Source: a virus. From it: a DNA stretch of 54,242 nt. Positions 9,820-53,183 of the stretch are shown one piece after another; within the stretch, counting starts at the first letter, position 1, and the number at the start of each line of letters is the position of its first letter. The translations under genes and the position numbers were made by a program. The notes beneath the pieces were generated by a model. It worked only from the letters and a program-made list of their open reading frames with translations. It was not told where the DNA came from and did no database searches. Location: IMG/VR virus record IMGVR_UViG_3300046835_000018, positions 1 through 54,242 of that record; one strand, 5' to 3'.

Positions 9820-9914
9820 CGTTAGACAAATTGGCGCGTCTTTGTAGTGAGGTAGGCTCGTCAGTTTGTCTAACAAGTGTCTAGATAGGTCTGTAAAACG
9901 TCTATAGTAATCCT
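9820..9914 (+). promoter_or_regulatory. Phased GTCT array 1 with adjoining inverted repeat
   Basis: GTCT begins at 9868, 9879, 9889 and 9900 (spacing 11, 10, 11). The third unit reads GTCTGTAAAACGTCTA. GTTAGACAAA just upstream has an inverted copy overlapping the first GTCT. The same 11-10-11 array occurs at 27035, 38334 and 52827. Here it lies directly before the 9931-12000 operon. One-turn spacing puts all four sites on one DNA face, as in OmpR/PhoB-type operators. Confidence 0.75.
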
Positions 9915-9930
9915 ATACCAAGGGGTTAAA

Positions 9931-10371
9931 GTGAGCAGGGTAGACGAGTTGTACCGGTTGGAATACGAGGCCCTTCAGAGCAAGTGGGAGGAGCTCTTCG
10001 AGAACTGTCCGACCCCTGAGGCTGACGCTATCCTCGATGCTTCACACCCACCGCCTGGTCTTGGTCGAATGATCGCCGAGGTCCAGACGGAGCTGATGGA
10101 GAAGCTCGAAGCTCTGGGTGAAGAGGGCGACGATGATGACACACGTGTCATGCGCTTGTTCACAGCAAGCATGAACGCGCTCTCCTTCATGACTGTACGT
10201 TTCTACCGCCTTGGCGGAGCGATGGCATGGCATATGCCTTACGAGAACATGACGCCATGCAGATGTACTGTCGCGCACGACGAAGAACTAAATGACCTAC
10301 TCAGTGAAGGGTTTCCACTCGACGGGGATGGGTGGGTGATTCAGAACTTCGTACCTAGGAGGGAGTCATGA
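9931..10371 (+). CDS. Protein upstream of the SNF2 helicase, unknown
   Basis: A 146-residue protein with GTG 9931 after AAGGGG. It is mainly helical and acidic (residues 1-80), with PCRC at about residues 110-113 in the second half. The stop overlaps the helicase start (ATGA), so the two are coupled and may act together. Confidence 0.65.
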   Translation: MSRVDELYRLEYEALQSKWEELFENCPTPEADAILDASHPPPGLGRMIAEVQTELMEKLEALGEEGDDDDTRVMRLFTASMNALSFMTVRFYRLGGAMAWHMPYENMTPCRCTVAHDEELNDLLSEGFPLDGDGWVIQNFVPRRES

Positions 10372-11822
10372 AGCTTTACCCATTCCAAAAGGAGATGGTC
10401 GACAAGTTCGAGTGTACTCCTGCCGTCCTCTGCGGGGATGACATGGGCGTGGGTAAGACATTCGAAGCACTGGCCCTAGACTTACGTAGGAGAACTACGC
10501 AGCTTAATGGGTACAGGCAAACGGACTGCAAGACACTCATTGTGGCGCCGCTTTCAGTGACGTCGTCGTGGGTTCGTCACGTGCAGACAATTTGGCCAGC
10601 AGCTAAGATCGCTGTGCTGAACCCGAAGAACCGGGACGCTCTCGCCAAGCAGTTGCGAGAGCCTTACCACTACTACGTTGTCCACTGGGAAGCTTTGCGC
10701 CTCATGCCAGAGCTGTACGAAGTGAACTGGTGGCACGTAATCGCCGATGAGGTGCACCGCGCCAAGAACCGTAAGGCGCAGCAAACCATCGGGCTCAAGA
10801 AGTTGAAGACGTCGTACAAGACTGGTCTGTCTGGCACGCCGGCCGACAATCAGCCACAGGATCTCTGGTCAATTCTTCATTGGCTATATCCGAAAGTGTG
10901 GTCTAGTTACCACAGGTTCGTGTACCATCACGTCAAGATCCAGAAGCACCCCGCTGGACAATGTACTGCGTTTGGGTGTGACAAGTACCACAAAAACGCG
11001 TACCAGAAGATCATGGGCGTATCGAATGTAGAAGAGCTGCACAAGAACATACAGCCCTACTACATGCGGCGCACTAAGGAAGAGGTCATCAAGGATCTTC
11101 CTGACAAGTACTTCAGTCAGATCGAAGTCGAGTTGCCGCCGCGTCAGAGGCGGATCTACAACCAGATGAAAGAGTCCATGCTTGCGTGGGTGGGAAAGCA
11201 TGAACAAGAGCCCATCGCAGCGCCCATCATCGTAGCCCAGCTCACACGGTTGAAGCAGTTCGCTCTTGCTTACGCCGAGCTGGAGACCTACTACAAGACG
11301 GACGATCAGGGCGAGAAGGTAGCGTTCCAGCGCGTCAGGCTGACTGATCCATCAACGAAGCTTGATGCGGTAATGGACGTACTCGAAGATTCACTGGAGC
11401 AAGTAGTTGTGTTCAGTGAGTCGAAGCAGATGATCTACCTGCTCAAGGCTCGTCTGGACAAGGCAGGAATCACCTGTGCAACACTGACTGGAGATACTCC
11501 CCACGCAGAACGTGGCAAGATCGTGGATGAGTTCCAGGCAGGCAACATTCGTGTGTTCGCAGGGACAATTGCTGCTGGTGGTGAAGGCATTACGCTGACA
11601 GCAGCAAGCACCGTCATCTTCTTGGACAGAACGTGGAACCCGTCCAAGAACAAGCAGGCAGAAGATCGCCTGCATCGTATCGGACAGAAGAATGCCGTAC
11701 ACGTTATCGACATCGTGGCGAAAGACACAGTCGATGGCGGACGGCTCCAGCAGTTGAAGCTGAAGTGGTCATGGCTGAAGCAGTTGCTGGGTGACAAGAC
11801 AGTGGTGGAGATCGATGCGTAA
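10368..11822 (+). CDS. SNF2-family DNA helicase/translocase
   Basis: A 484-residue superfamily 2 ATPase. Motif I is GDDMGVGKT (about residues 24-32), motif II is DEVH (about 128), motif III is LSGTPAD, motif V is AGGEGITLTAAS, and motif VI is EDRLHRIGQKNAV, which is diagnostic for the SNF2 group. It is a compact single-chain version with no extra DNA-binding domain. Phage SNF2 proteins are thought to remodel or branch-migrate DNA during replication and recombination. It overlaps genes on both sides. Confidence 0.92.
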   Translation: MKLYPFQKEMVDKFECTPAVLCGDDMGVGKTFEALALDLRRRTTQLNGYRQTDCKTLIVAPLSVTSSWVRHVQTIWPAAKIAVLNPKNRDALAKQLREPYHYYVVHWEALRLMPELYEVNWWHVIADEVHRAKNRKAQQTIGLKKLKTSYKTGLSGTPADNQPQDLWSILHWLYPKVWSSYHRFVYHHVKIQKHPAGQCTAFGCDKYHKNAYQKIMGVSNVEELHKNIQPYYMRRTKEEVIKDLPDKYFSQIEVELPPRQRRIYNQMKESMLAWVGKHEQEPIAAPIIVAQLTRLKQFALAYAELETYYKTDDQGEKVAFQRVRLTDPSTKLDAVMDVLEDSLEQVVVFSESKQMIYLLKARLDKAGITCATLTGDTPHAERGKIVDEFQAGNIRVFAGTIAAGGEGITLTAASTVIFLDRTWNPSKNKQAEDRLHRIGQKNAVHVIDIVAKDTVDGGRLQQLKLKWSWLKQLLGDKTVVEIDA

Positions 11823-12000
11823 AAGGGAAGTGGATTGGGAAGGAATTGTTATCGGGTCGCTCATCGCTGTGTTCATTATCGCACTCTTGGTATGGGCAGG
11901 CGTATCGACCATTAGAGACCAACGAGCGAAGAGTGAATGCTTCGCCGGCAACAAGCAGGTAGTCCAAGCAGAACATGGCGAAGGCTGGTCTTGTAGGTGA
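11815..12000 (+). CDS. Small single-pass membrane protein
   Basis: A 61-residue protein. ATG 11815 lies inside the end of the helicase gene. A basic N-terminus precedes one clear membrane helix (IVIGSLIAVFIIALLVWAGV, residues 13-32), then a short external-type tail with two Cys. The gene ends at a strong terminator. Confidence 0.65.
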   Translation: MRKREVDWEGIVIGSLIAVFIIALLVWAGVSTIRDQRAKSECFAGNKQVVQAEHGEGWSCR

Positions 12001-12013
12001 AGGAGCAAGAAAT

Positions 12014-12078
12014 GGTAGCAGGAGCGTTGAGCCTGGAGAACCCGAAAGGGAGGCTCAGCGTTCCTGCTGCCTTTTTTT
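12014..12078 (+). terminator. Strong rho-independent terminator
   Basis: A 21-bp near-perfect stem (12014-12034 with 12051-12071, two G-U pairs) is followed by seven T. This is the clearest terminator on the plus strand and closes the helicase operon. Confidence 0.9.
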
Positions 12079-12102
12079 ATTCCTTCCGTTAGGAGCCATC
12101 CC

Positions 12103-12321
12103 GTGCGCCACACATACCACCGAGAAGGTGTCACAGACCTGAGCGCCTTCCGTGAGGAAGCTCAGCGTCGACTGCTCGACAAGTACTACCCGGATGAGAC
12201 AGTCATCCACCTGCATGACAAGGAACTGTCGTGCAAGGAAAACAAGCACGAAACGGTCCTCTTCGAGAAGCCCGAAGCGACCGTCGATCCCGAGTCAGGT
12301 ATCCTCACCTGGGACAACTAG
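12103..12321 (+). CDS. Small protein, unknown
   Basis: A 72-residue protein from GTG 12103 behind TAGGAG. The composition is His- and acid-rich. The stop overlaps the next GTG. No family is recognised. Confidence 0.6.
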   Translation: MRHTYHREGVTDLSAFREEAQRRLLDKYYPDETVIHLHDKELSCKENKHETVLFEKPEATVDPESGILTWDN

Positions 12322-12479
12322 TGAGTGATACCAAAACCATCGTCAGTATGACGTGCATAGTAGACGATGAGACTCAGGTCGTGAAGGTGTTCGAGACCTT
12401 CAGTCGGGTCGTACTCGGGTTGAGCCTCGACGACATCGACGTCAGCATATCCGTACACAAGATGGAGGAGGTGGAATAA
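12321..12479 (+). CDS. Small protein, unknown
   Basis: A 52-residue protein from GTG 12321, overlapping the previous stop (TAGTG) and ending in a TAATG overlap with the next gene. The sequence is beta-rich and acidic. Tight overlaps on both sides support it as a real gene. Confidence 0.55.
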   Translation: MSDTKTIVSMTCIVDDETQVVKVFETFSRVVLGLSLDDIDVSISVHKMEEVE

Positions 12480-12826
12480 TGGCTAAGTACGTTCTCATAC
12501 AGTTCGACAACGATGACGACGCTGAGGGATTCGTCGGAGGTCTCACAACGACCAACCCGAATGCGTCAGTCAAGGTCGCCGGCATCTTCAAGAAGCCCAC
12601 GCTCTTCTGCGAGTGTGTACCACAGGAAGAGAAGAGCGCTCGCGGAGCCAAGTGGGGATGGTGGATCTGCAAGAAGTGCGGCCGATGCAAGAAGGGTCAA
12701 TGGCAGTCACCTAGGAACCTGCTCGACCCTGCAGACATCCTCTCGAAGGAGCGCACCTCCTTCCTGCAGACGCACGAGCCCATCGGCGAGCGTCTTCCGA
12801 CAGTGACTCTGATCGAGCCCCGATGA
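12479..12826 (+). CDS. Zinc-ribbon protein
   Basis: A 115-residue protein with ATG 12479 in a TAATG overlap. A ferredoxin-like start (KYVLIQFDNDDDAEGFVGGL) precedes a cysteine cluster (CEC, then CKKCGRC at about residues 44-72) that would bind zinc. Function unknown. Confidence 0.65.
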   Translation: MAKYVLIQFDNDDDAEGFVGGLTTTNPNASVKVAGIFKKPTLFCECVPQEEKSARGAKWGWWICKKCGRCKKGQWQSPRNLLDPADILSKERTSFLQTHEPIGERLPTVTLIEPR

Positions 12827-12906
12827 CTTTCGGTGACTGGCTCCTAGCAGGGTTCGTCGTTGCCATGCTCGGACTTCTATTCTTGCTGAGCAAGGGCAAG
12901 ATATAG
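12823..12906 (+). CDS. 27-residue membrane peptide
   Basis: ATG 12823 overlaps the previous stop (ATGA) and TAG is at 12904. The product is almost entirely one hydrophobic helix (WLLAGFVVAMLGLLFLLSKGK). The overlap and the typical helix-plus-Lys end support it despite its length. Confidence 0.5.
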   Translation: MTFGDWLLAGFVVAMLGLLFLLSKGKI

Positions 12907-13016
12907 AGGATCTTGAATGCGTGCCTGTGGAATACAACCACCCACAGGGCGGCTGCAGTGAATGGAGGAACTAATATTGCCTATTGTGTCCTAATCAGTT
13001 CTTTGAAGGGAATAGA

Positions 13017-14222: not shown

Positions 14223-14295
14223 TTGAATTGAAGTCGGGTCAAAATCGTACCACAGTGTCTCGTCTAGACATCTATAAAGACGATTTTGACCCCTC

Positions 14296-14326: not shown

Positions 14327-14345
14327 AAATGGAGAAGGGATAAAT

Positions 14346-17302: not shown

Positions 17303-19549
17303 ATGGTACAACCGGATACACTGGAAGAAGATAGAAGTGCTTGGAACATCTTCTTTCGTGTCGTCTTTGGTCAGCGGGTCGATGGGTACGTCTGCATTGC
17401 CTATATGAACATCGGCGACGGTGGAAAGAAGAAGTGGGAAGAACACTTCTTTCAGTGGCCGGAAGAGCTTCCGCGGATGTTGACTCACCTCGAGGTGAAC
17501 TACAAGCAGGGCAATACGTACTTCTGTCCGCAACTCATGCTGACAAAAGATCGCCCTCCAGGAGCCAAGAGCCCACGAGTCAAAGAGAACATCGCACCTT
17601 GCACAGTCGCCTGGGCTGATCTAGATACGTGTTCGCCAGAACTAATGCTGGTAGAGCCTAGCGTAGTGGTCCTAAGTTCGGACAACAGATACCAGGCCCT
17701 GTGGGTTTTCGAGCAACCAATTGACCCTGCCGATGCGGAACAGATCAGCAAGAACATTGCCTACCACCACGTGTCCGATGGCGCTGATGGAGGTGGTTGG
17801 GACCTAACGCAGATGCTGAGGGTGCCTCACACCTACAACATGAAGCGCGACATACCATTTCGTGTCAAGACTCTGAAGATCACCAAGGTCAAGCACACCA
17901 TTGAAGACTTCAACGTCTACAAAGAGTCACGGATCAGTTCTAGAGACCACGACCCGATGCCTCAGGTGCTGCCGACCGAGACGCCATTGGATATCCTGCA
18001 GAAGTATCGCAGGTCATTGAATCCGGTGGCGTTCAGCATCTTCGATGTGACACCACAGATCACCGAAGTCGATGGTGGATGGAGCAAGGTTCTCTGGCAG
18101 CTGATCATGCTTCTATTCGAAGCTGGTCTCTCAAGGGAAGAAGTGTTCGTCGTCGCGAGCGACGCGGCCTGCAACAAGTACAAGCGAGACGGTAAGCATC
18201 CCAAGCTGCTCTGGGAAGAAGTGTGCAGAGCATACCAAGCAACCGTCGAGAAGCTGAACATCCTCGTACCTGAAACAGTCAAGCAAGCACCGCTGATCAC
18301 TCAAGAAGAGCTCGACTCGATCTCACATTATCACACCTTCATCGACCGCTATGTATCGTGGGCAAGTAGACTTGGCGACGCGGCAACACAGTACCATCAC
18401 GCAGGTGCTTTCATGATCCTCAGTTCACTACTCGCAGGCACAATCCGATTGCCCACATCATTCGGCGTGATCATGCCCAACATGTGGTTCATGCTTCTAG
18501 CTGATACGACATTGACACGTAAGTCGACGGCCATGGACATCGCCATGGACATCGTTGACCAGGTCGATGACACCGTCCTACTAGCAACGGATGGTTCACT
18601 AGAAGGTCTTATGCAGTCACTCGAGATCAGACCAGGAAAGCCGTCGATGTTCCTTCGCGACGAGTTCTCGGGCCTAATCGAATCGATGACTCGTAAGGAC
18701 TACATGGCAGGCATGGCTGAAGCACTTACCAAGTTGTACGACGGCAAGACAATGAAACGAGTACTAAAGCGTGAGACAGTAACTGTTCGCGAGCCCTGCC
18801 TCTTAATCTTCGGAGGTGGCATCAAGACGCGAGTGCAGTCACTGCTCACACTCGAGCATGTTGCTTCTGGATTCGTACCTCGATTCATCTTCATTACGGC
18901 TGAATCGGATGTAAGTCGGCTACAGCCACTAGGTCCACCTACTCCTGACAACCTAGCTGAGAGAGACGAGATCGTCGAAGAGCTCATGGAGCTTCGAGAC
19001 AGGTACGTCTTCGATCAGGAGATCGTCGTCAAGGGTAAGGCTATCGGCGTCTCTGAATCTAGGATCATGGCGAGCTTGACCGAAGAAGCTTGGGCTCGCT
19101 ACAACATCCTCGAAGCTACAATGCTGTACGCAGGTGTCAATAGTGATCAGCCAGACATCATGACGCCTGTATACGACCGTCTGGCGAAGTCAATTCTCAA
19201 GGCATCGGTGCTTATTGCAGCATCGAATCAGAAAGAACGTGGCGAGGTAATCGTTACACTGAACGACCTACTCACAGGGTTGAAGTATGGCAGTGAGTGG
19301 TTGAAGTACAGTACCGAGATTGTGAACGGTATCGGACGTACTGCCAATGAGCAGCTACTGCAACGCATCATGCAGAGCATTCGTAGGCACAAGGGCGTAT
19401 CTCGTTCACAGTTGATGCAGTGGTACCACCTCGAAGCTCGACAGGCTGAAATCATCTTCAACACGCTCGAGCAACGAGGCATGATCATTGCAACACGCAT
19501 GGGCAGAACTTGGGTATACGATGCAGTAGGAAGGATCAGGGCAGAATGA
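17303..19549 (+). CDS. Primase-helicase fusion
   Basis: A 748-residue protein. ATG 17303 is preferred over GTG 17294 because AGGAGG (17289-17294) would overlap the latter. The N-terminal ~230 residues resemble archaeo-eukaryotic-type primases of the RepB/PrimPol kind (TVAWADLDTC, SSDNRYQALWVFEQPID, LRVPHTYNMK). The C-terminal half resembles DUF3987-type helicase domains, with Walker A-like ADTTLTRKST and a Walker B/arginine-finger region near FLRDEF and GFVPRFIF. It is the likely replication initiator. Confidence 0.75.
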   Translation: MVQPDTLEEDRSAWNIFFRVVFGQRVDGYVCIAYMNIGDGGKKKWEEHFFQWPEELPRMLTHLEVNYKQGNTYFCPQLMLTKDRPPGAKSPRVKENIAPCTVAWADLDTCSPELMLVEPSVVVLSSDNRYQALWVFEQPIDPADAEQISKNIAYHHVSDGADGGGWDLTQMLRVPHTYNMKRDIPFRVKTLKITKVKHTIEDFNVYKESRISSRDHDPMPQVLPTETPLDILQKYRRSLNPVAFSIFDVTPQITEVDGGWSKVLWQLIMLLFEAGLSREEVFVVASDAACNKYKRDGKHPKLLWEEVCRAYQATVEKLNILVPETVKQAPLITQEELDSISHYHTFIDRYVSWASRLGDAATQYHHAGAFMILSSLLAGTIRLPTSFGVIMPNMWFMLLADTTLTRKSTAMDIAMDIVDQVDDTVLLATDGSLEGLMQSLEIRPGKPSMFLRDEFSGLIESMTRKDYMAGMAEALTKLYDGKTMKRVLKRETVTVREPCLLIFGGGIKTRVQSLLTLEHVASGFVPRFIFITAESDVSRLQPLGPPTPDNLAERDEIVEELMELRDRYVFDQEIVVKGKAIGVSESRIMASLTEEAWARYNILEATMLYAGVNSDQPDIMTPVYDRLAKSILKASVLIAASNQKERGEVIVTLNDLLTGLKYGSEWLKYSTEIVNGIGRTANEQLLQRIMQSIRRHKGVSRSQLMQWYHLEARQAEIIFNTLEQRGMIIATRMGRTWVYDAVGRIRAE

Positions 19550-20382
19550 AGGTACTCGCTGTTGTGTCAGGTGGATTGGACTCCACCACACTCATGTACG
19601 ACCTCCTCTCGGGAGGTGACGAGGTCCAAGCGATCTCGTTCAACTACGGTCAGCGCCACAAGCGTGAGCTGGTGTACGCTGCGGCCAACTGCAAGGCGCT
19701 GAACATTCAGCACGACATCATCGACCTTCGCACTCTGACGGAGTTCCTCAGCAATTCGGCGCTCACGTCGAACAAGGAGATCGAGGTTCCTGAAGGTCAC
19801 TACGCCGAAGACAACATGAAGCAGACGGTCGTTCCGAACCGCAACATGATCATGCTGTCGATCGCCACAGGCATCGCGATCAACCGAGGGCTCAACACCG
19901 TCGCGACAGCAGTTCACGCCGGCGATCACTTCGTCTACCCGGACTGCCGTCCCGAGTTCATCTTCTCACTCGGCCAGGCGATCCTCGATGGCAATCAGGG
20001 CTTCCACAACTTCTTCGTCGAGGACATCGAGCCCATCGTGATCGGCGATCGCACCTACAGCAAGACGGCCAAGCCGCTTACCACTCCGTACATCCACCAG
20101 ACGAAGGAGGAGATCGCAGTTCGAGCCCTCGAGCTCGGCGTGCCTCTTCACCTCACGTGGAGCTGCTACAAGGGTGGTGACCAGCACTGTGGTCGATGTG
20201 GCACCTGCGTCGAGCGTCTCGAAGCGATCCACAATGCGCTCATCACGTGGAACGCTCACACCAGTCCTGCAGAGCGACGCTACGACGCGACACCGTACGA
20301 GGACGAGGAGTACTGGAAGGTCGTCGTCGGCAAGACGAGGGTCGAGACCACCTCTGACGTCACAGCGTACGAGGAGAACTGA
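19546..20382 (+). CDS. queC: QueC, 7-cyano-7-deazaguanine synthase
   Basis: A 278-residue protein. ATG 19546 overlaps the previous stop (ATGA). The PP-loop SGGLDSTT (residues 8-15) activates carboxy-deazaguanine with ATP. The zinc site is CYKGGDQHCGRCGTC (about residues 206-220). It makes preQ0. It is about 50 residues longer than usual QueC, mostly in a C-terminal tail with no known domain. It is first of the preQ0 cluster; the adjacent genes supply its substrate. Confidence 0.93.
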   Translation: MKVLAVVSGGLDSTTLMYDLLSGGDEVQAISFNYGQRHKRELVYAAANCKALNIQHDIIDLRTLTEFLSNSALTSNKEIEVPEGHYAEDNMKQTVVPNRNMIMLSIATGIAINRGLNTVATAVHAGDHFVYPDCRPEFIFSLGQAILDGNQGFHNFFVEDIEPIVIGDRTYSKTAKPLTTPYIHQTKEEIAVRALELGVPLHLTWSCYKGGDQHCGRCGTCVERLEAIHNALITWNAHTSPAERRYDATPYEDEEYWKVVVGKTRVETTSDVTAYEEN

Positions 20383-20849
20383 TGCACAGCATCTTCGTGA
20401 ACCACAACATGGAGATCGCCCACCGGCTCTCCATGCTCCCAGGCAAGTGCCAGAAGATCCATGGACACTCCATGCAGATCACTCTTCGGCTCGACGGTGA
20501 GCTCGACGAGGACGGCATCCTCTGTGGTATGGACTTCGGTGATCTGAAGCGGGCCTTCCGCAACTTCATCGACACCGAGTTCGACCACCGACTCATCCTC
20601 AACGAGTCCGATCCCTGGGCGCGGCAACTGAAGCAGCTCCCCGAAGACAACGGGATCTCAGAAGCATCTGCCCATTACCAACGACTTCCAGGTCTCAAGA
20701 CCACGCCTGGAGATCCCACTACAGAGAACCTCAGCAAGTGGATCTGTGAGTGGGCCGTGGGACAGGTTGAGGTGTTCGGCATCACAGCCGTGCACGTGAC
20801 CATCCACGAGACCGGCACCAATGGTGCTATGACCAAGTGGTCAAAGTAG
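20382..20849 (+). CDS. queD: QueD, 6-carboxytetrahydropterin synthase
   Basis: A 155-residue protein in TGATG overlap with queC. Zinc-binding His residues are in HNMEIAHRL and KIHGHS, with the catalytic Cys in GKCQKIHGH and an acidic/His pair in the C-terminal IHETGT region. It converts dihydroneopterin triphosphate, made by the FolE downstream, to carboxytetrahydropterin for QueE. Confidence 0.92.
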   Translation: MHSIFVNHNMEIAHRLSMLPGKCQKIHGHSMQITLRLDGELDEDGILCGMDFGDLKRAFRNFIDTEFDHRLILNESDPWARQLKQLPEDNGISEASAHYQRLPGLKTTPGDPTTENLSKWICEWAVGQVEVFGITAVHVTIHETGTNGAMTKWSK

Positions 20850-20861
20850 TAAGGAAGTTGC

Positions 20862-21209
20862 ATGTCCGAAATGTTGCTCTCCGCCGATGTCTTCTGGGCA
20901 ATCGCTATGACCCCAGTAACATTGGTCGTACTGGTCCTCCTCGCTTGTGTGCTCAGCAACCGGTCAAGTCGTAGCCCTCATCAGCACGACCTGGCCGACA
21001 CAGCGTTCTGGACAGCGGTAAAGCTCGACCAAGCTTCACGCGGCGCCGTACTTGGTACGCCAGAGCCTCTCGAGCCAGTCGCCGAGACAATCTCGTTGTA
21101 CACAGCAACACTATCTGAAGTGCAGACCTACCTGATCAAGGCACGAGAGGCCCGACGCCTCGAGCGCCGCGAGTTTGGAGCACTTATGCGAATGGCTCGT
21201 ACCGCTTAA
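20862..21209 (+). CDS. Single-pass membrane protein within the preQ0 cluster
   Basis: A 115-residue protein with one membrane helix at residues 13-33 (AIAMTPVTLVVLVLLACVL), followed by a charged cytoplasmic-type domain rich in Arg and Glu. It lies between queD and queE but has no recognisable enzymatic motif. Confidence 0.65.
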   Translation: MSEMLLSADVFWAIAMTPVTLVVLVLLACVLSNRSSRSPHQHDLADTAFWTAVKLDQASRGAVLGTPEPLEPVAETISLYTATLSEVQTYLIKAREARRLERREFGALMRMARTA

Positions 21210-21258
21210 TCCGTCTGGGAGGTCCTCTTCGGAGGACCTCCCCTATCAAGGAGGGCAT

Positions 21259-21951
21259 ATGCGTCTATCAGAGGTGTACACCTCGACGCAGGGAGAAGGA
21301 CCGAAGGTAGGCATTCCAACCACCTTCGTCAGGTTCGCAGGCTGCAACCTGAAGTGTGCTGGATGGGCTTGCGACACTCAACACGCTATCGATCCGAAGC
21401 TGTACCGCAAGGACTGGCTCGAGCTCGGTCCCGAGCAAATCCTCGAGATGATTCTCGATGAGACAGGCAAGACTGGTGCTCGGAACGTCTGCTTCACCGG
21501 CGGCGAGCCTTTCCTTCAGGAGCACGATCGCCTGCTCAAGCTCATCTCGATGTGCGCCATGGAACGCCTCGACATGGAGGTCTTCACCAACGGTACCATC
21601 GAGTGGCCTCATCGAGCCATGCACCGGATGAACTTCGTCATGGACTGGAAGCTCTCAGGATCAGGCGAGAACGTTCGCGAGAGCGACGCCGTGTGGCAGA
21701 ATGCTCTTCGGCTCGGACCGAAGGATGCCATCAAGTTCACCGTCGCCTCCGATGACGACCTGGGCGAGGCGTACGACACATACATGCGCATCCAACCCCA
21801 GGTCCGCGACGTGCAGTTCTTCGTCGGCCCGGTCTGGGGCAAGATGGAACCTTCAGTCGTCGTCGACTGGATGCTCCGAATGGGTCTTCCATGGCGCCTT
21901 AACATCCAGGCGCACAAGTACATCTGGCCAGCCGATGCAAGGAGGACATGA
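21259..21951 (+). CDS. queE: QueE, 7-carboxy-7-deazaguanine synthase
   Basis: A 230-residue radical SAM enzyme. ATG 21259 follows AAGGAGG; a longer upstream frame is rejected. The Fe-S motif is CNLKCAGWAC, that is C-x3-C-x4-C, not the usual C-x3-C-x2-C. GGEPFLQ follows at the SAM site. N-terminal TSTQGEGPKVGIPTTFVRFAGC is typical for QueE. It turns carboxytetrahydropterin into carboxydeazaguanine, the QueC substrate. Confidence 0.92.
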   Translation: MRLSEVYTSTQGEGPKVGIPTTFVRFAGCNLKCAGWACDTQHAIDPKLYRKDWLELGPEQILEMILDETGKTGARNVCFTGGEPFLQEHDRLLKLISMCAMERLDMEVFTNGTIEWPHRAMHRMNFVMDWKLSGSGENVRESDAVWQNALRLGPKDAIKFTVASDDDLGEAYDTYMRIQPQVRDVQFFVGPVWGKMEPSVVVDWMLRMGLPWRLNIQAHKYIWPADARRT

Positions 21952-22313
21952 TGGGTGGTCACCCGATGGAGAACGTTCCCGATCCTCGACACGAGGAGCA
22001 GCAGACCGCCTTGGAGAAGCTGCGAGCACTCTTCGTAGCCCAGCCAAAGCCGTCAGCTCCAAGGCCTGAGGTTACTCCGAACCGCAAGGACCTTCGCTCG
22101 AAGGGAATCGGCACGAGCAAGTCGTTCACCAAGGGTACTCCTTTCGCGAGGATGACCCGCTACAAGGTGAACGGATCCGATCTCGACCGCTACGTCACGT
22201 TCTACTACAAGGACGAGAACGGCAAGACGACCAAGAGGGTCACGCTCCCGAAGGACAAGGTCGACATGGACTCGGTTCGTGCCCAGAGAGAGGCTCAACG
22301 TGCCGCTCGGTGA
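21948..22313 (+). CDS. Basic protein, unknown
   Basis: A 121-residue protein with ATG 21948 (or 21951) overlapping the queE stop. It is Lys/Arg-rich; residues 68-105 look like a small beta domain (ARMTRYKVNGSDLDRYVTFYYKDENGKTTKRVTL). It sits between queE and folE. DNA binding is plausible from charge alone. Confidence 0.6.
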   Translation: MMGGHPMENVPDPRHEEQQTALEKLRALFVAQPKPSAPRPEVTPNRKDLRSKGIGTSKSFTKGTPFARMTRYKVNGSDLDRYVTFYYKDENGKTTKRVTLPKDKVDMDSVRAQREAQRAAR

Positions 22314-22974
22314 TCCGCTCCGCAACATCAATCCTGAACTGCGACTCAAGATCGAAGAGAGGATGGCCCACATGACCAACGCACTCGGAGCGGACGGACC
22401 TACATTCCGTCAGATGGCCTTGGACAAGGAGGCTGAAGAGGCTGCCGAGGTTGTTCTTCGCCTCGCTTGCGACCTCGACGTGAACGACATGCACGGCAAG
22501 GAGACACCGCTGCGCTTCGTCCAGATGCTTCGGGAGCTCACCACGCCGCAGCCAATCAAATGGAAGACGTTCCCGAACGAGGGATACGATGAGATGATCA
22601 TCGAGCGGAACATTCCGTTCACAAGCCTCTGCAACCACCACGTCATCCCATTCATCGGCGTCGCTCATGTCGGCTACATCCCCGACAAGATCGTTCCGGG
22701 TCTCAGCAAGATCGCCCGAGTCGTCCAGCACTACGCCAAGGCTCTCCAGGTTCAGGAGAAGCTGACCAAGCAGGTCGCAGACTTCCTGGAAGAGAACATG
22801 CAGCCTCTCGGTGTCGCCGTCGTGCTCGAGGCTGAGCACATGTGCATGACGATCCGAGGCGTGCAAGTTCCCGGCACAACAACGTACACGGCTGCAATGC
22901 GTGGACGCTTCGCCGACCACGAGAAGACCGCAAAGGCTGAGTTCCTCAGCCGTATCAACGGGAGTCACCGATGA
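22300..22974 (+). CDS. folE: FolE, GTP cyclohydrolase I
   Basis: A 224-residue protein. GTG 22300 or GTG 22279 are both possible; both overlap the previous gene. Zinc and active-site residues are seen in CNHHVIPFIGVAHVGYIPD and EAEHMCMTIRGV, with GLSKIARVV and the C-terminal TTYTAAMRG motifs of the family. It makes dihydroneopterin triphosphate from GTP, the first step to preQ0. It gives the phage a pathway independent of host folate supply. Confidence 0.92.
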   Translation: MPLGDPLRNINPELRLKIEERMAHMTNALGADGPTFRQMALDKEAEEAAEVVLRLACDLDVNDMHGKETPLRFVQMLRELTTPQPIKWKTFPNEGYDEMIIERNIPFTSLCNHHVIPFIGVAHVGYIPDKIVPGLSKIARVVQHYAKALQVQEKLTKQVADFLEENMQPLGVAVVLEAEHMCMTIRGVQVPGTTTYTAAMRGRFADHEKTAKAEFLSRINGSHR

Positions 22975-23306
22975 CCGAGCCTGAAGAAGTCGATCCTGCA
23001 AAGGTCGAGTTCGCCCAGTTCATCACCGAACTCAGCAAAGAGTTCGACGATGTAACCTTCGATCGACACAAGATGGGCGCCGAGAAGTATGGCGCTGGCA
23101 AGTTCCTCACGGTCGACACGATCACCGAGGCGTTGGAGGAGATTGCCGACTTCTCCAACTACATGCGGTACACCTACATCCGACTGCGCCTTCTACAGGA
23201 GCGCATCTTCATGATGCAGGCCGAGAACTTGCCGGAAGAGACCGTTCCGATCACCGGCTTCATCAAGTCGTCCGAGGCAACAGCAGTTCGACCTCCGAAG
23301 GAGTGA
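22971..23306 (+). CDS. MazG-like nucleotide pyrophosphohydrolase candidate
   Basis: A 111-residue protein in ATGA overlap with folE. KMGAEKYGAGKF followed by TITEALEEIADFSNYMRYTYIRL resembles the E-E-x-x-D helical motif of all-alpha NTP pyrophosphohydrolases and phage dATP/dGTP diphosphohydrolases. It could adjust purine pools for deazapurine synthesis or DNA replication. The family match is by motif reading only. Confidence 0.55.
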   Translation: MTEPEEVDPAKVEFAQFITELSKEFDDVTFDRHKMGAEKYGAGKFLTVDTITEALEEIADFSNYMRYTYIRLRLLQERIFMMQAENLPEETVPITGFIKSSEATAVRPPKE

Positions 23307-23307
23307 C

Positions 23308-23430
23308 ATGAAAGAGTTCTTCCTAGACATGATGGCAAACCTCATTGGAACAGGTCTTGCCTTCGTGTGCCTCATGGTGGCTATCAAGTGGCAAGACAGT
23401 AGCAACAAGAAGCGGAAGGCAGGAGAGTGA
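23308..23430 (+). CDS. 40-residue membrane protein
   Basis: ATG 23308, TGA 23428-23430; the end overlaps the next GTG. One hydrophobic helix (LIGTGLAFVCLMVAI) follows an acidic start, ending in SSNKKRKAGE. It lies between the MazG-like and dpdA genes. Role unknown. Confidence 0.5.
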   Translation: MKEFFLDMMANLIGTGLAFVCLMVAIKWQDSSNKKRKAGE

Positions 23431-24170
23431 AGGCTGCACTGATTGCTCCGAAGGGGTACGAGCACACAGTACTCCAAAGCGACATCCACCTCATCCTTCC
23501 CTTCAAGGACACGCTATCCAATCCCAACTACCTCCGAACCTACATGGACGCGAAAGACCGAGGGGATTATATCATCCTCGATAATGGTTGTGCTGAGGGT
23601 GACCTGGTAACCAACCAGGCACTCGCAGAGGCAGCTCACGTTTTCCAGCCAGATGAAGTCGTCGCTCCTGACGTCATGGGTAGCTACACAGGCACTCGTG
23701 CACTCACTCATGAGTTCCTTCGGGAATTCGAGGGCGACTACAAGATCATGGCTGTCCTTCAGGGCGAGTACTGGATCGACCTCGAAGCTCTTCTGGCGTA
23801 CTACGTCACAGAAGCTCGGATCACGACCATCGGCATCCCGAAGGTGCTCGTAAAGAACCGAGGTGATACCATGCGAGTTCGTATTGCCAGACACATCGCG
23901 GCAACGTATCCTGATCGCTTCGACATCCATCTCCTCGGAGCGAGTCCTCACTTCACGGACGAACTGGACCTGCTTAGCTTCTCTTCAGGGATCAGGTCTA
24001 CCGATTCAGCTCTCCCGTACAAGTTCACGTACGCCAAGCAGGAGCTCGGCTTCGACAAGGCTCACGTCAAGCGTTGGCCTGGCTACTTCAAAGAAGAGGT
24101 GAACCTCGATCCTGAACTGCTGGAATCCAACGTTCGCACCTACATGAGATGGGCGGCGAGGCATAAGTGA
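23427..24170 (+). CDS. dpdA: DpdA-like DNA 7-deazaguanine transglycosylase
   Basis: A 247-residue protein from GTG 23427. The sequence has features of the TGT/DpdA barrel: LDNGCAEG, VVAPDVMGS (candidate catalytic Asp), MAVLQGE, GIPKV and the FSSGIRSTDSALP loop. DpdA enzymes exchange guanine in DNA for preQ0. With QueC, QueD, QueE and FolE next to it, and no tRNA-type zinc domain, DNA is the likely substrate. No QueF-like or amidotransferase gene is seen, so unmodified preQ0 is the predicted base. Confidence 0.82.
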   Translation: MKAALIAPKGYEHTVLQSDIHLILPFKDTLSNPNYLRTYMDAKDRGDYIILDNGCAEGDLVTNQALAEAAHVFQPDEVVAPDVMGSYTGTRALTHEFLREFEGDYKIMAVLQGEYWIDLEALLAYYVTEARITTIGIPKVLVKNRGDTMRVRIARHIAATYPDRFDIHLLGASPHFTDELDLLSFSSGIRSTDSALPYKFTYAKQELGFDKAHVKRWPGYFKEEVNLDPELLESNVRTYMRWAARHK

Positions 24171-26551: not shown

Positions 26552-26700
26552 TGAGGCTCCTGCTATGGCTAGCGCATAAGTTCGTAGACTTCCTCATCTG
26601 GATTGTCAGTCACGCAGACAAGTGCATACACGGCAAGCCGATGTGTGATGCATGCAAACGCGAATGGCACAAGACCCGTCACTCGGCAGGAGGCTGGTAA
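26551..26700 (+). CDS. Small membrane-associated Cys protein
   Basis: A 49-residue protein from ATG 26551 (TGATG overlap) to TAA 26698. A hydrophobic start (LLLWLAHKFVDFLIWIV) is followed by HADKCIHGKPMCDACKREWHK, a compact His/Cys zinc-like cluster. The next gene begins immediately. Confidence 0.55.
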   Translation: MRLLLWLAHKFVDFLIWIVSHADKCIHGKPMCDACKREWHKTRHSAGGW

Positions 26701-27036
26701 GTGAGAGGAACTGAATCTGAGATCGGCACGGAGCGTGTATCTGCGAATGGATACCGCTACCGGAAGATCTCCAACGGCAAGTGGATACTCGTTCACCGTC
26801 TCATGGCTGAAGAGATGCTTGAACGAGAACTCCACGAGAGTGAGTACGCATCCTTCAAGGATGGCGATCGGACCAACTTCGATCCTTCGAACATCGTCGT
26901 GCTCACCCGAGGTGCTCGGTCGCTCAAGAAGCGTCAGGCACAACTCACAGTACGTATCCAAGAGCTTCAGGCTGCCCTCGCCGACGTCAACAGCCGACTA
27001 GAGGTCAGAGAGTCTCTCGGTAGTGATGTAGAATAG
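26701..27036 (+). CDS. HNH endonuclease
   Basis: A 111-residue protein with GTG start at 26701. ILVHRLMAEEML then FKDGDRTNFDPSNIVVL matches short HNH nucleases (His, Asn, and the DxxNxxPxNI loop). A C-terminal coiled coil (residues 75-105) is unusual and may dimerise it. It may be a homing-type or packaging-related nuclease; position between polymerase and resolvase does not decide. Confidence 0.75.
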   Translation: MRGTESEIGTERVSANGYRYRKISNGKWILVHRLMAEEMLERELHESEYASFKDGDRTNFDPSNIVVLTRGARSLKKRQAQLTVRIQELQAALADVNSRLEVRESLGSDVE

Positions 27037-27080
27037 ACGTTCTACAGACCTAGTTAGACTCTTTGTAGACTAAGTGAATC
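27035..27080 (-). promoter_or_regulatory. Phased GTCT array 2
   Basis: On the minus strand GTCT recurs at 11-10-11 spacing (AGAC at 27035, 27046, 27056, 27067 on the plus strand), with GATTC 10 bases ahead. The conserved core reads GTCTGTAGAACGTCTA. It lies directly after the HNH gene and before the 27192 operon. A further GTCT pair with 11-base spacing follows near 27112-27123. Confidence 0.75.
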
Positions 27081-27147
27081 TATAGCCTCACTAGATGGAG
27101 CTGCAGAATCGTCTCTTTGCGGTCTAACGCGTTCGTAGTTGTCACTC

Positions 27148-27190
27148 ACCCACAGGGCCGATGAGCCGCTATTGGGAATGGAGGAACTAA
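27148..27190 (+). promoter_or_regulatory. ACCCACAGGGCC motif and ribosome-site leader
   Basis: ACCCACAGGGCC (27148-27159) is followed by GAATGGAGGAACTAA (27176-27190) before ATG 27192. The same pair, motif then identical 15-mer, occurs at 12940-12974. The leader is therefore a repeated unit. Confidence 0.6.
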
Positions 27191-27191
27191 G

Positions 27192-27686
27192 ATGTTCGTT
27201 GTGACTGGTGGTAGAGCGTCTGGGAAGACCTCTGCCATCGTTAGATGGTTGCTAGAGAATCCTATGGGACGGGGTGTGGTGGTGCTCAATGAGCAGCGCC
27301 GGACTCACCTACTGCGCATGCTGCAAGATCGTCTGCCTCGGCATGACTGGAGGCCTCACGTCATCTCGATCGCAGGCATTGACCTTCGTGGCCTGCCTCG
27401 ACGCGGACGACTGTTCGGGTTCCACGAGATGGCGGTCGACGACCTGCAGGAAGTCTTCACCGAGATGTTCGGCAGCGACTTGGAGTTCGCAACGCTGAAC
27501 GCTACGTGGCTACCTCTCGGAGGTGAGGAGCCGGTCAAGGCTGAAGCCGAGTACTACCCAACGGCCCTCGAGCTGATTGACCGGGAGCTCAACGAAAACC
27601 CTCCGACGTCCAAGAAGAAGGTTGCACCTTCACCGATGCTCGCTGTTCGCAGAAGAGCGATCACGGGGACGGTCGATGAAGCCTAA
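27192..27686 (+). CDS. P-loop NTPase
   Basis: A 164-residue protein from ATG 27192 with GGAGG 8 bases upstream. Walker A GGRASGKT lies at residues 6-13. RGVVVLNEQRR is a plausible beta-strand/arginine region. It is short for a helicase; kinase-like or DNA-transaction ATPase roles are possible. It overlaps the RuvC-like gene. Confidence 0.7.
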   Translation: MFVVTGGRASGKTSAIVRWLLENPMGRGVVVLNEQRRTHLLRMLQDRLPRHDWRPHVISIAGIDLRGLPRRGRLFGFHEMAVDDLQEVFTEMFGSDLEFATLNATWLPLGGEEPVKAEAEYYPTALELIDRELNENPPTSKKKVAPSPMLAVRRRAITGTVDEA

Positions 27687-38190: not shown

Positions 38191-38401
38191 TTCACCCTCC
38201 AGTTTGCGCCTAGTGAACGTGGTCAGCGCGCCCATGTGCTTTACATTCCCCACAGGGCCGCGCGCGATAACTTCCGGATAGTTTAAAGAGATTAGCTTTA
38301 GACATATTTGCAGTACTAAGCACGTGAGGTGTAGATTCAAGTAGTCTAGTAGAGGTCTAAGCATGTCTGTTTAACGTCTACGGGAAGTTGTAGCCTAGCT
38401 A
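38191..38401. promoter_or_regulatory. Tail-module regulatory gap with phased GTCT array 3
   Basis: GATTC (38334) and GTCT at 38344, 38355, 38365 and 38376 repeat the 10/11-10-11 pattern; the core is GTCTGTTTAACGTCTA. A CCCACAGGG motif lies at 38249-38257. The minus-strand leader from that motif to ACATGGGCGCG resembles the leader at 52198. It splits the structural operon between the major tail protein and chaperone genes. Confidence 0.75.
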
Positions 38402-48437: not shown

Positions 48438-48445
48438 GGAAGGCC

Positions 48446-48838: not shown

Positions 48839-49110
48839 AGAATGCCCTCCTTCGGGACAAAGTTGAAACGAGCATCGAGCTCGTTCATGATCTTGCACGA
48901 GAGGTCGTTGAGGTAGTGCATGACGACCTCGGCAGTGTCTGACTCAGCCATCTCGGGATCGACACTTGCAAGCAGCGCGTCCAAGATGACTCGACGAACT
49001 GGTCCGGGCGTCACGTCAGCCTCCCCAGTGATCTGAAACTCGTACAGCTCACCTTCGATCAGCATCTTGTTGTCGCCAACGAGCTTCGTTTCTGCCTGCT
49101 CTGTATCCAT
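48835..49110 (-). CDS. Small protein, unknown
   Basis: A 91-residue acidic protein with GGAGGG before ATG 49110. Helical C-terminus. It is coupled to the downstream structural gene (ATGA). No family recognised. Confidence 0.6.
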   Translation of the reverse strand: MDTEQAETKLVGDNKMLIEGELYEFQITGEADVTPGPVRRVILDALLASVDPEMAESDTAEVVMHYLNDLSCKIMNELDARFNFVPKEGIL

Positions 49111-49139
49111 CCCACTACCCTCCAGTAGTTCAAAGCTCG

Positions 49140-49502
49140 CTACGGCAACGCGTCACGTGACACTGCGAGATCCAGATACGCAAAGCCCTTCATCGGCCGA
49201 AGCCGGTTAGCAGCTGTCGTGAACACTTCGAGATCGTACACCCCGCTCGTCCAAGTCATGACAGCTGTCACGTCTGCAGGAACTAGGATGCGTACGACAC
49301 CTTCAGGACCGTCTACCGTGATGTAGTCGTTGGCCGTCGAGGCTTCCATCAGGACGACCTCAGATGCGACTTCCGAACGAACCTGTAGACGAGCGTCGTA
49401 GCCCGTCAAGTCCTTGATAGTGCCATCAGTATTCTGTACAGCCACATTCATGGCGAAGTTGGCGCCCTGAGGCACTGTGATGTCCCTGACTAGAGGTATC
49501 AC
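49140..49502 (-). CDS. Beta-rich virion protein
   Basis: A 120-residue protein from GTG 49502. Beta-sandwich-like sequence (ANFAMNVAVQNTDGTIKDLTGYDARLQVR, GVYDLEVFT) as in the small N-terminal domains of baseplate/receptor-binding proteins. The ribosome site is distant (AGGAGG, 13 bases). Likely a minor structural protein. Confidence 0.55.
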   Translation of the reverse strand: MIPLVRDITVPQGANFAMNVAVQNTDGTIKDLTGYDARLQVRSEVASEVVLMEASTANDYITVDGPEGVVRILVPADVTAVMTWTSGVYDLEVFTTAANRLRPMKGFAYLDLAVSRDALP

Positions 49503-49519
49503 GTTAGTTACCTGGCCTC

Positions 49520-51001
49520 CTAGAAGCGCTGACCTAGACCAGCTGAGTCGAAGAAGGAACTTGGAGTTCCGTTCTCGAAGAAGCTATTGTTCTGTCGAAC
49601 CAGTTCCTCGAGGTCGTAGAACTCACTCAGCCTGTACGTAGCGCCGAGCTTGAAGATGTGCATCAAGGCATATCGGATCGCATCGAGAGCGTGGTCATCG
49701 AACTTGCGAGCGTCTTCGCGAATGTTTCTGTCACCGCGGCCAGTATCTGGGGCTCGATAGTTGTTGAACTCGCGGATGGTGTTTCCACAGCTTGGGTCGA
49801 TCGTGAGCCAGGCCTCTTCGAGCGGAGTGCCAAATTCGTCAGCGACTCCGACAACTCGTGGCTTGAGATAGGACTTGACAAGCTCCACTCCCTCTCGCCA
49901 ACCGGACTCACGAGTGTGACGTCCTTGTGTCTCGTTCGTAACCTTAGCTGTACCAGACTTGCTTCGGGGATCTGCCAGGCACGGAACAAGACTGGTACTG
50001 ACCTTTAGAACGGATTCGGGAGAAGCTGCATCTCCGAATGCCATGTCGAGGTGGTACCCGAAAGGCTGATCACGTGCCTTGAGAAGCCTGATGTGATCGT
50101 CCAGCATCAGCCCTCCCTTGTAGTGCTCACGCCAAATGTAGACCTTCTCAGTTCCTGGATCAACTTGGAACTCGATCGCCGCAAGCGGGTTCGTAAATCC
50201 CCAGTCGAACGCTATGTAGTTCGGCCACTCAGGACGGAAGGTATGCGGTTTGACGTGCAAGATCTCATTGAACTCTTCGTAAATCTTTCCGACGAAGGCG
50301 TTGAACATGGCTGCGATCTCTTGGTCAAAGAAGGCAGGTAGTACCGTCGCCTGGATCAAGGCGATCTCAGGATCAGCTTTTCCGCCCGGGTAGACATAAG
50401 GGTTATCCCAGCTCGGAAACTGCCAGCTTTCGTAATCCTTATATACCTTATCCGTGTTTCGACCAAACGCCCAAAGATCATACAGCCAGTTGAAGCCTTC
50501 TGGAGTCGTCGGAAATGTAGCCCAGCCACGAGCATCTGCAAGGGCGGGACGTATGAAACGTTCCCAAGTATCCTTACGATGCTTCGCGGCCTCGGACATG
50601 ATCGCCCCGTGAAGCTTTTCACCAACCAAGTTCTCGGGGTGGTCAGCTGATCTACACTCCACCCTTGTCTGCCAGGGGAACTCAATCCACATCTCCCCCG
50701 ATCGCTTGGAGTAGGACTTCTTGACCCTCTTGTCTAGGCCAAGCTTCTGACCGATGATCAAGTCGTCCCAGATTACCCGGAACTCCTTCTCGGCGAGGTC
50801 GTAGGTAGGACCAACGATCCAGAACCTTCGCTTCGGAAGGAAGAGCTCAGCACCGCAGTCCCGACCAGCCATGTGGGACTTCCCAAACCGTCGTCCGCAT
50901 ACGGGCACTCGAAAGCGACTCAGTGAGTCATGGAACAACTTCTGCTTCGGGTGTGGCACGTAGCCCACCAGCTCGAAGTAGTTCGCTTTCGAGAGAGGCA
51001 T
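49520..51001 (-). CDS. terL: Terminase large subunit
   Basis: A 493-residue packaging motor. Walker A-like VCGRRFGKSH (about residues 32-41), Walker B region near HGAIMSEAAK, C-terminal RNase-H-like nuclease with IAFDWGFTNP (Asp) and FDDHALDAIRYAL (Asp). It starts in TAATG overlap with the holin-like gene. Coupling to a membrane protein is unusual. Confidence 0.93.
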   Translation of the reverse strand: MPLSKANYFELVGYVPHPKQKLFHDSLSRFRVPVCGRRFGKSHMAGRDCGAELFLPKRRFWIVGPTYDLAEKEFRVIWDDLIIGQKLGLDKRVKKSYSKRSGEMWIEFPWQTRVECRSADHPENLVGEKLHGAIMSEAAKHRKDTWERFIRPALADARGWATFPTTPEGFNWLYDLWAFGRNTDKVYKDYESWQFPSWDNPYVYPGGKADPEIALIQATVLPAFFDQEIAAMFNAFVGKIYEEFNEILHVKPHTFRPEWPNYIAFDWGFTNPLAAIEFQVDPGTEKVYIWREHYKGGLMLDDHIRLLKARDQPFGYHLDMAFGDAASPESVLKVSTSLVPCLADPRSKSGTAKVTNETQGRHTRESGWREGVELVKSYLKPRVVGVADEFGTPLEEAWLTIDPSCGNTIREFNNYRAPDTGRGDRNIREDARKFDDHALDAIRYALMHIFKLGATYRLSEFYDLEELVRQNNSFFENGTPSSFFDSAGLGQRF

Positions 51002-51309
51002 TAGTGCAGGTCCTCATCACCAAGTACGAATCGGTGCTTCGACCCAACCGTCTCAGCCTGGGCGGTTGGAATCGGTCCGTCAGTCGCTTCGGTCACCTGC
51101 AGCGTACTGGGTGATGTCTGAACCGTCGTGACCTTGTTCGTCGCATTCGGAACAGCCCACGTCAGGCCGCCGCCGGCGAGAACAGCACTCACTACGGTAG
51201 ACCACTCATCGGCAGTCATACCGTCATTCCGAAGTGCGAAGAACATCACCAGACCTGCGACAAGTGCCGACGTGATCGCCTTGGCGTGCTCATTCAGCCA
51301 CTGTGTCAC
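51001..51309 (-). CDS. Holin-like membrane protein
   Basis: A 102-residue protein. GTG 51309 has AGGAGG 8 bases upstream; a GTG three codons earlier overlaps that site. Two hydrophobic helices (residues about 12-27 and 38-55) connected by a short acidic turn (RNDGMTADEWSTVV), with a charged C-terminus: typical of small actinophage holin/membrane proteins. It precedes terL rather than an endolysin, so the role is not certain. Confidence 0.6.
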   Translation of the reverse strand: MTQWLNEHAKAITSALVAGLVMFFALRNDGMTADEWSTVVSAVLAGGGLTWAVPNATNKVTTVQTSPSTLQVTEATDGPIPTAQAETVGSKHRFVLGDEDLH

Positions 51310-51365
51310 CCGGTCCACCTCCTCACTAGATATATAATGAAGTCATATCCAAGCTATTTTACGCC

Positions 51366-51593
51366 CTAATTCGGTACCCAATACGGGTAAGTCGCTGGGT
51401 GTAGGTTGTCAGGATCGCGGTCTTTCCGGTCAACATTCGACACGTTTGTCCCTGTGTGCCCGATCCGAACTCCTACGTTCGTCGCGCTGTTCACCACCAG
51501 CACTTGCGCACTAGTTACGGTCACGACGCCAGCTGCTTCTTGGAACAGCTGCACGCCGTGACCGACCCTAGGTAGCCTGTAAGGCCCTGCCAT
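51366..51593 (-). CDS. Small virion-like protein
   Basis: A 75-residue protein (weak ribosome site) with a beta-strand look: VVTVTSAQVLVVNSATNVGVRIGHTGTNVS. Likely a small structural or decoration protein by neighbours. No family recognised. Confidence 0.55.
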   Translation of the reverse strand: MAGPYRLPRVGHGVQLFQEAAGVVTVTSAQVLVVNSATNVGVRIGHTGTNVSNVDRKDRDPDNLHPATYPYWVPN

Positions 51594-51606
51594 TTCTGGA
51601 TCTGCC

Positions 51607-52137
51607 TTACCGCTTGATGTACACGTTGGTATCGACTCGCGTGACCATCTTCGTAGCAGTCACACCGAGCTGCCCGCCGACCAGGCCTCCTGTTGGGTTC
51701 AGCAGGCCGACACGGCCATCAGCCGTCGGCAGTGCTCCAGAAGGCGTGATCGCCCCGGTGTCATCCCACGTTCCAGCCACACCAGGAGTCACGGTAGCCA
51801 TGAACACCTCAGTGCCGGCGCTGCGTCCGTAGACCTTGTAGACGCTGGTCGCAGTCGCGTTCGGGAAGGTGATCGTAACCTTGTTCGTCGTGCCACCGCC
51901 AACCACGGTTGTCTTGGCCGAAGCAACAGGTGCCGATTCCACACCCTGCACCACGTTGGTGATCTTGTACGAGTACGTCGCTGCCGTAAGCGTACCACCC
52001 GTACCACTGTTCGCCACCGTGAAGTCTCCAGCAGCCGGAATCGCAGGCTGCGTCTGTATCACGGTTGCATTGCGTGTCTTGCCGGCCGCATTCCGAAACT
52101 GCACGGTATCGCCGACAACTGCTGTCTGGACTGGCAT
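51607..52137 (-). CDS. Ig/FN3-like decoration protein
   Basis: A 176-residue beta protein with AAGGAGG before ATG 52137. Residues 45-130 form a FN3/Ig-like domain (ATYSYKITNVVQGVESAPVASAKTTV, VYKVYGRSAG) closely similar in pattern to the insertion in the tail tube protein at 38402. Probably exposed on the virion surface. Confidence 0.65.
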   Translation of the reverse strand: MPVQTAVVGDTVQFRNAAGKTRNATVIQTQPAIPAAGDFTVANSGTGGTLTAATYSYKITNVVQGVESAPVASAKTTVVGGGTTNKVTITFPNATATSVYKVYGRSAGTEVFMATVTPGVAGTWDDTGAITPSGALPTADGRVGLLNPTGGLVGGQLGVTATKMVTRVDTNVYIKR

Positions 52138-52233
52138 TCTGCCTCCTTCACTGTCGGGCGCTCCTGCTCACTCCGCGCCCATGTCCTGCCTGCAAACACC
52201 CACAGGGCCGGCTCAAGTAATGTTCGCACAGCT

Positions 52234-52578
52234 TTAGGCTCCGCGCTGAGGCATCCCAGCGTCTGAGCGCTCAGCGTCGTTGTCTGCCAGCTTGTTGACC
52301 AGGGCGATCAGCAGGTCGTCAGCGCCGCCAGTGACCTTGAAGCCGCCACCGATAACGCCATCGATGATGTACTTGGCCGCGCTGAGCCGAACGTTCTCGT
52401 TGCCTGCGTACGAGGACAACCAGGCAACACTCTGCGCAGCTCCTGGAGCCGCCTGCATCAGGATCTTGCGAGCGAGCTCCTCATCAGTGAGCTCTGCCTC
52501 AACAACCCTCTGCATATTCAGACGCGCGAGCATCTCATCCGGGACCCACTCGTCATCCGGTACGATTTCCCTAGGCAT
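52234..52578 (-). CDS. Small terminase subunit candidate
   Basis: A 114-residue helical protein, first in the late operon and four genes before terL. The size and the helix-rich ARKILMQAAPGAAQSVAWLSSYAGNENVRLSAAKYIIDG region suit a TerS. The first 16 residues (PDDEWVPDEMLAR) are shared with the early protein at 1422. Confidence 0.6.
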   Translation of the reverse strand: MPREIVPDDEWVPDEMLARLNMQRVVEAELTDEELARKILMQAAPGAAQSVAWLSSYAGNENVRLSAAKYIIDGVIGGGFKVTGGADDLLIALVNKLADNDAERSDAGMPQRGA

Positions 52579-53183
52579 CGACGTCTCCCGCTTGCATCTG
52601 AAATGCTGTACACAGTACTGGTCTTCTCTCCTTATTATACCTTATTCAGCACCAAAATGCATACTAACTCATCTATATTAGTACTACAACCAACGCCCTC
52701 CCCCTTGTATCCTCGACCACCTGTCCCTCACTTTCGCTACGAGCATCATCAACCTACCTTAATTCATTAGGCACCCCTCTTAGACTCTAAAGAGACAAAC
52801 AACCGTGACTTTCTAGCTACATAGTAGAGTCCTTTAGTCTCTTATAGGTCTTAACTAGTCTCTTAAACGTCTAAACTGATTCTTAAGCTAGCGTTTAAGT
52901 GACCTACGTACTAGGTGATACATGAACACTGTCACTTCCAAAAACAAGCTCGGCGAGATTTTAGCCCACGGGGAGTAAATGATCTTGAAAAAACTGGTAT
53001 AATATAGTTATAACGTGCGAAACCAAACTAAATCGGACCAAATCGGACCAATCCGGTTCAAGTGGGCGAAATCGGACGTTATCGTCATTTAATAACTCAA
53101 AAGCGGAAGAACCAGACAAAAACGGACCTTATCCGGTCCTACCGTCGTATATCCGGTCAAAACCGGACAAACGGAGGTAAAAC
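52579..53183. promoter_or_regulatory. Late-operon control region with phased GTCT array 4
   Basis: No gene is seen. A minus-strand TATAAT (52639-52634) faces the late operon, without a clear -35. GTCT at 52837, 52848, 52858 and 52869 with GAGTC at 52827 forms the fourth 11-10-11 array; GATTC follows at 52878. A plus-strand extended -10 box (TGGTATAAT, 52995-53003) points toward the terminal genes. The CCGG-rich zone starts near 53050. Confidence 0.7.

Follow-up and report, generated by a model that had tools for sequence, protein, structure and literature searches.

A 91-bp, helically phased repeat element at four gene-block junctions of an uncultivated siphovirus group, a probable regulatory site bound by a protein of the phage

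The window analyzed here (the whole 54,242-nucleotide stretch of IMG/VR virus record IMGVR_UViG_3300046835_000018) has overlapping contig ends, its first 60 bases reappearing at 54099, and comes from an uncultivated soil phage, a siphovirus as judged from PHROGs matches to terminase, portal, major head and tape-measure proteins, a family A DNA polymerase and a helicase. A primase was indicated via tblastn matches, and relatives in IMG/VR, with primases 62-71% identical, were collected through it; the DNA polymerase of one relative, G014, is 56% identical to that of the window. Synteny tables showed the same gene order and orientation among the relatives compared. No DNA-level relative was found among isolated phages when a 24-kb stretch of the window was searched. 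Translations from 19546 to 24170 read as queC, queD, queE, folE and a DpdA-like protein, from which the phage DNA is probably 7-deazaguanine-modified; the product of g23427 had no match in PHROGs.

Four exact arrays of GTCT units spaced 11-10-11 are present in the window, beginning at 9868, 38344 and 52837 on the plus strand and spanning 27035-27070 on the minus strand. All four had been located, to the base, by a first-pass annotation; the GTCT half was correctly described, but two inverted AGAC units in every copy were overlooked. Each copy is exactly 91 bp long and is composed of six units, two inverted AGAC units (L1 and L2), a 40-bp spacer and four GTCT units (R1 to R4). L1 and L2 (AGAC-N7-AGAC) are 11 bp apart, lying 55 and 44 bases ahead of the first GTCT, and the L1 of copy C deviates, reading AGAT at 38289. 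Read from the array side, the consensus of the 70-bp core is AGAC-N7-AGAC-NAAAGGAATCTACNNCCTANGTANAAAGC...GTCT-N7-GTCT. The copies are separated by 17.2, 11.3, 14.5 and 11.1 kb round the genome and are placed as follows.

9813..9903, plus strand: copy A, with L1 at 9813 and L2 at 9824 (AGAC) and R1-R4 at 9868/9879/9889/9900 (GTCT), between g9365 and g9931, ahead of the helicase/replication operon
27035..27125, minus strand: copy B, with R4-R1 seen as AGAC on the plus strand at 27035/27046/27056/27067 and L2 and L1 as GTCT at 27111 and 27122, between the DNA polymerase and P-loop/RuvC genes
38289..38379, plus strand: copy C, with L1 (AGAT) at 38289, L2 (AGAC) at 38300 and R1-R4 at 38344/38355/38365/38376, between g38402 and g37771, both minus-strand virion genes
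52782..52872, plus strand: copy D, with L1 at 52782, L2 at 52793 and R1-R4 at 52837/52848/52858/52869, flanked on one side by the small terminase gene (minus strand) and on the other by the early region

The array pattern is not common by chance. It occurred in 0 of 100 dinucleotide shuffles, and ~2.5e-5 arrays are expected from the frequency of GTCT, which together exclude a chance origin. A GATTC or GAGTC placed 10 bases ahead of the first GTCT, also part of the earlier description, occurs in three of the four copies, copy A (9868) being the one without it. The pattern described as common to units 3 and 4 does not extend to the copy at 27035, whose units 3-4 read GTCTGTAGAACGTCTA and break the 'WW' positions.

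To follow the element among relatives, we based a sequence-only profile on 20 cores taken from the phage group. The profile detected four copies each in the window (G000), G004, G008 and G013, three copies and a half-copy in both G002 and G006, and three copies in G012; four copies of four units each were found in G014 by reading. The relatives' copies occupy the same junctions as in the window: A precedes the helicase operon, B follows the DNA polymerase, C separates g38402 from g37771, and D adjoins the small terminase gene. All four junctions stay the same while other genes change. The AGAC and GTCT units are invariant or nearly so and the bases between them are free. L1 and L2 are 11 bp apart in 17 of 17 cases, and L2 and R1 are 43-44 bp apart in 19 of 19. 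The outer R units vary among relatives (11-10-11, 12-9-12, or R3/R4 inverted), so the 11-10-11 spacing of the first description is one variant among several. Among more distant relatives, units with other spacings were seen by eye (for example, 21 bp in G011), and site C of many has no such element.

Outside this group the pattern is rare. An open scan of IMG/VR for the 11-10-11 pattern returned 67 stretches, and the array was rejected as a general phage motif, since only the stretches in relatives were genuine as a group and the others were mostly simple repeats, coding repeats or chance occurrences. The specific core pattern was found in 10 IMG/VR stretches, a number of which belong to relatives already identified. 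Across the ~85,000 genomes of bacteria and archaea in genome_contigs there were only four, chance-like matches, three of them the same Acidimicrobiaceae stretch, which lies inside an ORF in the one genome examined, and one from Streptococcus; no homologues of window proteins were found beside any of the four. As all four core matches in ~85,000 genomes fall outside homologous loci, the element is phage-specific, and it is strongly conserved.

This distribution bears on the proposal, made in the first-pass annotation, of an OmpR/PhoB-like binder. PhoB and OmpR sites are roughly 11-bp direct repeats, and direct-repeat half-sites at 10-11 bp are present here, though two units per element are inverted. 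However, with four non-homologous matches in ~85,000 prokaryote genomes, the host is unlikely to have a regulon built in this way, and part of every element is inverted. Moreover, the Trans_reg_C domain (PF00486) was absent from eight phages, the window and seven relatives, in a search in which control genomes gave matches. Boxes for a response regulator of this type, whether of host or phage, are therefore improbable, and we set aside this part of the earlier description.

Inverted units could also act in RNA, as hairpins serving as terminators, processing elements or leader elements. Folding is strong for copy A (z -5.3) and moderate for copy B (z -3.4), but copies C and D fold poorly (z -1.8 and -1.6), and the stem is not kept by compensatory changes: pairs between the units mostly fail or are neutral, positions between units being unpaired in roughly one-third to one-half of the sequences, although the units themselves are invariant. 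In addition, there are no U-tract terminators at A-C and no match in Rfam, and it would be surprising if RNA hairpins explained the element. Because phasing and junctions are kept and pairing between the units is not maintained, the element is best regarded as a protein-bound, phased DNA site, and the original view of a helically phased site at module boundaries, contacted on one DNA face, is well supported. A different, short hairpin, CCC-ACA-GGG or CCC-TGT-GGG, occurs in the leaders downstream of B (27132-27192) and C (38250-38290) and is kept in relatives, even in those without the element (L103 and L110).

At B and C, the orientation of the element to the next gene is constant across relatives. 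Copy A faces the opposite way in G014; for copy D, the orientation in G004, G008 and G013 is opposite to that in G000, L053 and G014. These flips suggest an action that works either way round, and since orientation to the downstream gene is inconsistent at A and D, a simple one-way promoter is disfavored. From this arrangement, we favor an orientation-indifferent action over a one-way promoter, with a two-way promoter as the alternative. A short minus-strand ORF at 26569-26961, after the DNA polymerase gene, has 37-42% similar ORFs in five relatives, and could be a gene that copy B drives in the opposite direction.

At A, B and C, the scans detected neither a consensus sigma-70 promoter (-35/-10 hexamers) nor an intrinsic terminator (GC stem plus U tract), which would fit promoters that depend on a regulator. 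An extended -10 motif beyond R4, TTGCTAGGCT, looked like a promoter but was not accepted as one, since B and C have the motif too and there it would read antisense. No T7-type RNA polymerase gene was recognized among the ORFs read, and a PF00940 search was uninformative, its controls being without a match. One likely -10 region of a constitutive early promoter was identified near 53000, by eye:

52998..53013 (approximate), plus strand: TATAATATAGTTATAA, without an array and unlisted in the sigma-70 scan

The motif is common to G011, G012 (as TATAATATAGTTA) and G014. At site C of L182 and L183, a start codon and Shine-Dalgarno sequence directly follow unit L1. Placement at junctions is by itself weak evidence for a role in transcription, as a compact phage genome leaves non-coding elements only the gaps.

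If the element is bound by a phage protein, three gene products are candidates.

187..528, plus strand: g187, a small protein with four predicted helices in an HTH-like order
7291..7794, plus strand: g7291, a second candidate binder
9087..9497, plus strand: g9087, with a predicted winged helix and a C-terminal coiled coil, upstream of copy A

We take g187 as the first-choice candidate, with g9087 or g7291 as the others. It is the first conserved gene beside copy D and carries a nearly invariant QMMYNYxRNG segment. By reading, the 13 of the first 30 records that contain g187 are those with arrays; this co-occurrence is only suggestive, because G036, G038 and G039 also have g187 and no array was detected in them. 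The g187 family had no significant match to a known DNA-binding family (fold search and PDB were empty; HTH_17 reached E 0.06 in 1 of 20 members). The g7291 product is a possible paralogue, to judge from 24 residues alike to g187 (hhalign P 1.6e-5). The best matches of the g9087 model are wHTH domains of plasmid initiator (Rep) proteins (E 1e-3), with TubR weaker; g9087 is also present in relatives in which the element was not detected, and it has no homologue among isolated phages. Directly upstream of copy A, 9494-9808 encodes a conserved, zinc-ribbon-like small protein (CPKC...CRNARC) that faintly resembles phage activators of the Ogr/Delta type.

Phased arms on either side of a spacer also recall attP with its Xis and Int arm sites, as if the copies were site-specific recombination sites with att-like arms and core. 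No tyrosine or serine recombinase (PF00589, PF00239) was present in the eight phages, however, although control genomes gave matches, and gene order and orientation are unchanged among relatives. These observations largely refute the reading, which we regard as highly improbable.

Beside copy D, the 1.1 kb from 52990 to 54110 has a strict 10.0-bp periodicity. CCG/CGG words hold their phase modulo 10 nearly throughout, alternating with A/T tracts, and the periodicity power is 58.7; the maximum was 9.2 among 200 triplet shuffles and 7.1 among windows sampled from other places. Periodic DNA lies at the same place in G002, G008 and G012 and is absent in G004, G006, G013 and G014; the stretch overlaps two small ORFs that are homologous to ORFs of L053. 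This DNA is possibly as noteworthy as the four-copy element itself, and it is one of several features that would suit a site of DNA architecture (centromere-like, iteron-like or for condensation), for which the junctions would merely be the available gaps. The orientation flips at A and D, the multi-copy, phased and near-symmetric layout with its spread round the genome, and the resemblance of the g9087 model to plasmid initiator domains and, more weakly, TubR point the same way. Against it, no partition ATPase/GTPase or plasmid replication module was noticed among the genes read, the same four junctions are occupied despite gene changes, and the element can adjoin a start codon. We consider an architectural site rather unlikely.

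A DNA-binding protein encoded by the phage probably uses the element as a control site. More specifically, we give about an even chance to the 91-bp element being an operator at which a phage wHTH-type protein, with protomers spaced one turn apart, controls transcription at the four junctions. Protein binding, the identity of the binder as g187 or g9087/g7291, and the effect on transcription are all inferred here. The protomers would be arranged one helical turn apart on a single DNA face, on both sides of the 40-bp spacer, and the bound protein could fold or bend the element into a compact complex. With one element at each gene-block junction, one early protein could set transcription at all four, whether by activation, repression or insulation against read-through, switching from the early genes to the replication, P-loop/RuvC, tail and head genes. 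Precedent for such an arrangement, by analogy, comes from Apl, Cox, Xis and BldC, which bind direct repeats of one turn or 9 bp and regulate promoters. An unlikely variant is that the four elements are orientation-indifferent boundary complexes, each folded by one protein, that delimit four independently expressed genome domains; if true, they would be to a phage what insulators or the boundaries of chromosomal domains are elsewhere. Should orientation independence hold, it would indicate a role as a boundary or in DNA architecture, of which few phage examples have been described. A single shared control element also makes this uncultivated phage clade recognizable from sequence, and together with the short list of phage proteins that may bind it, the system offers a clean test of one DNA-binding protein coordinating four phage gene blocks.

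Several known systems share parts of this design. The first-pass annotation knew of no phage operator of such a form, but 186 Apl, P2 Cox, and the lambda and Pukovnik Xis proteins recognize direct repeats spaced by one turn of the DNA, and Apl and Cox use such repeats as operators, 186 Apl acting at pR-pL and att (PMC7498355). Like the putative operator described here, these sites are one-turn tandem repeats with several arrays per genome and, as proposed here, a small wHTH protein as binder and a role in transcription control (PMC7498355). They differ in that their sequence is only loosely defined and they belong with an integrase system, whereas the element described here has nearly invariant units, a layout of two inverted plus four units around a 40-bp spacer, and four syntenic copies, in a genome without the integrase partner of an excisionase/RDF (PF00589 and PF00239 absent). 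BldC of Streptomyces, a lone wHTH protein, binds two to four direct repeats cooperatively and head to tail at smeA-sffA and whiI (PMC5859096); its sites differ in their 9-bp repeats, AATTXXXX(C), it is a bacterial regulator, and g187 is not significantly related to it. The stoperators of cluster A mycobacteriophages are likewise phage-specific operator sites repeated across the genome, but they are single, short, asymmetric sites oriented with transcription (PMC4351075) rather than 91-bp composites. The SAS and extended SAS of cluster K are conserved repeats, some inverted and some near start codons, but they consist of 13-bp RBS-like sites and of 17-bp inverted repeats, most of whose spacers measure 4-13 bp, and helical phasing is not described in the parts of that report consulted (PMC3203893). 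The 17-bp palindromic repeats of cluster O are also orientation-indifferent, repeated phage elements with no assigned function, but they occur in more than 30 copies, each a single palindrome, with one third inside genes (PMC4351075). Thus, phased direct-repeat operators were already known; what is new is the fixed, spacing-locked architecture of two inverted plus four units, present in four syntenic copies with orientation flipped at two sites.
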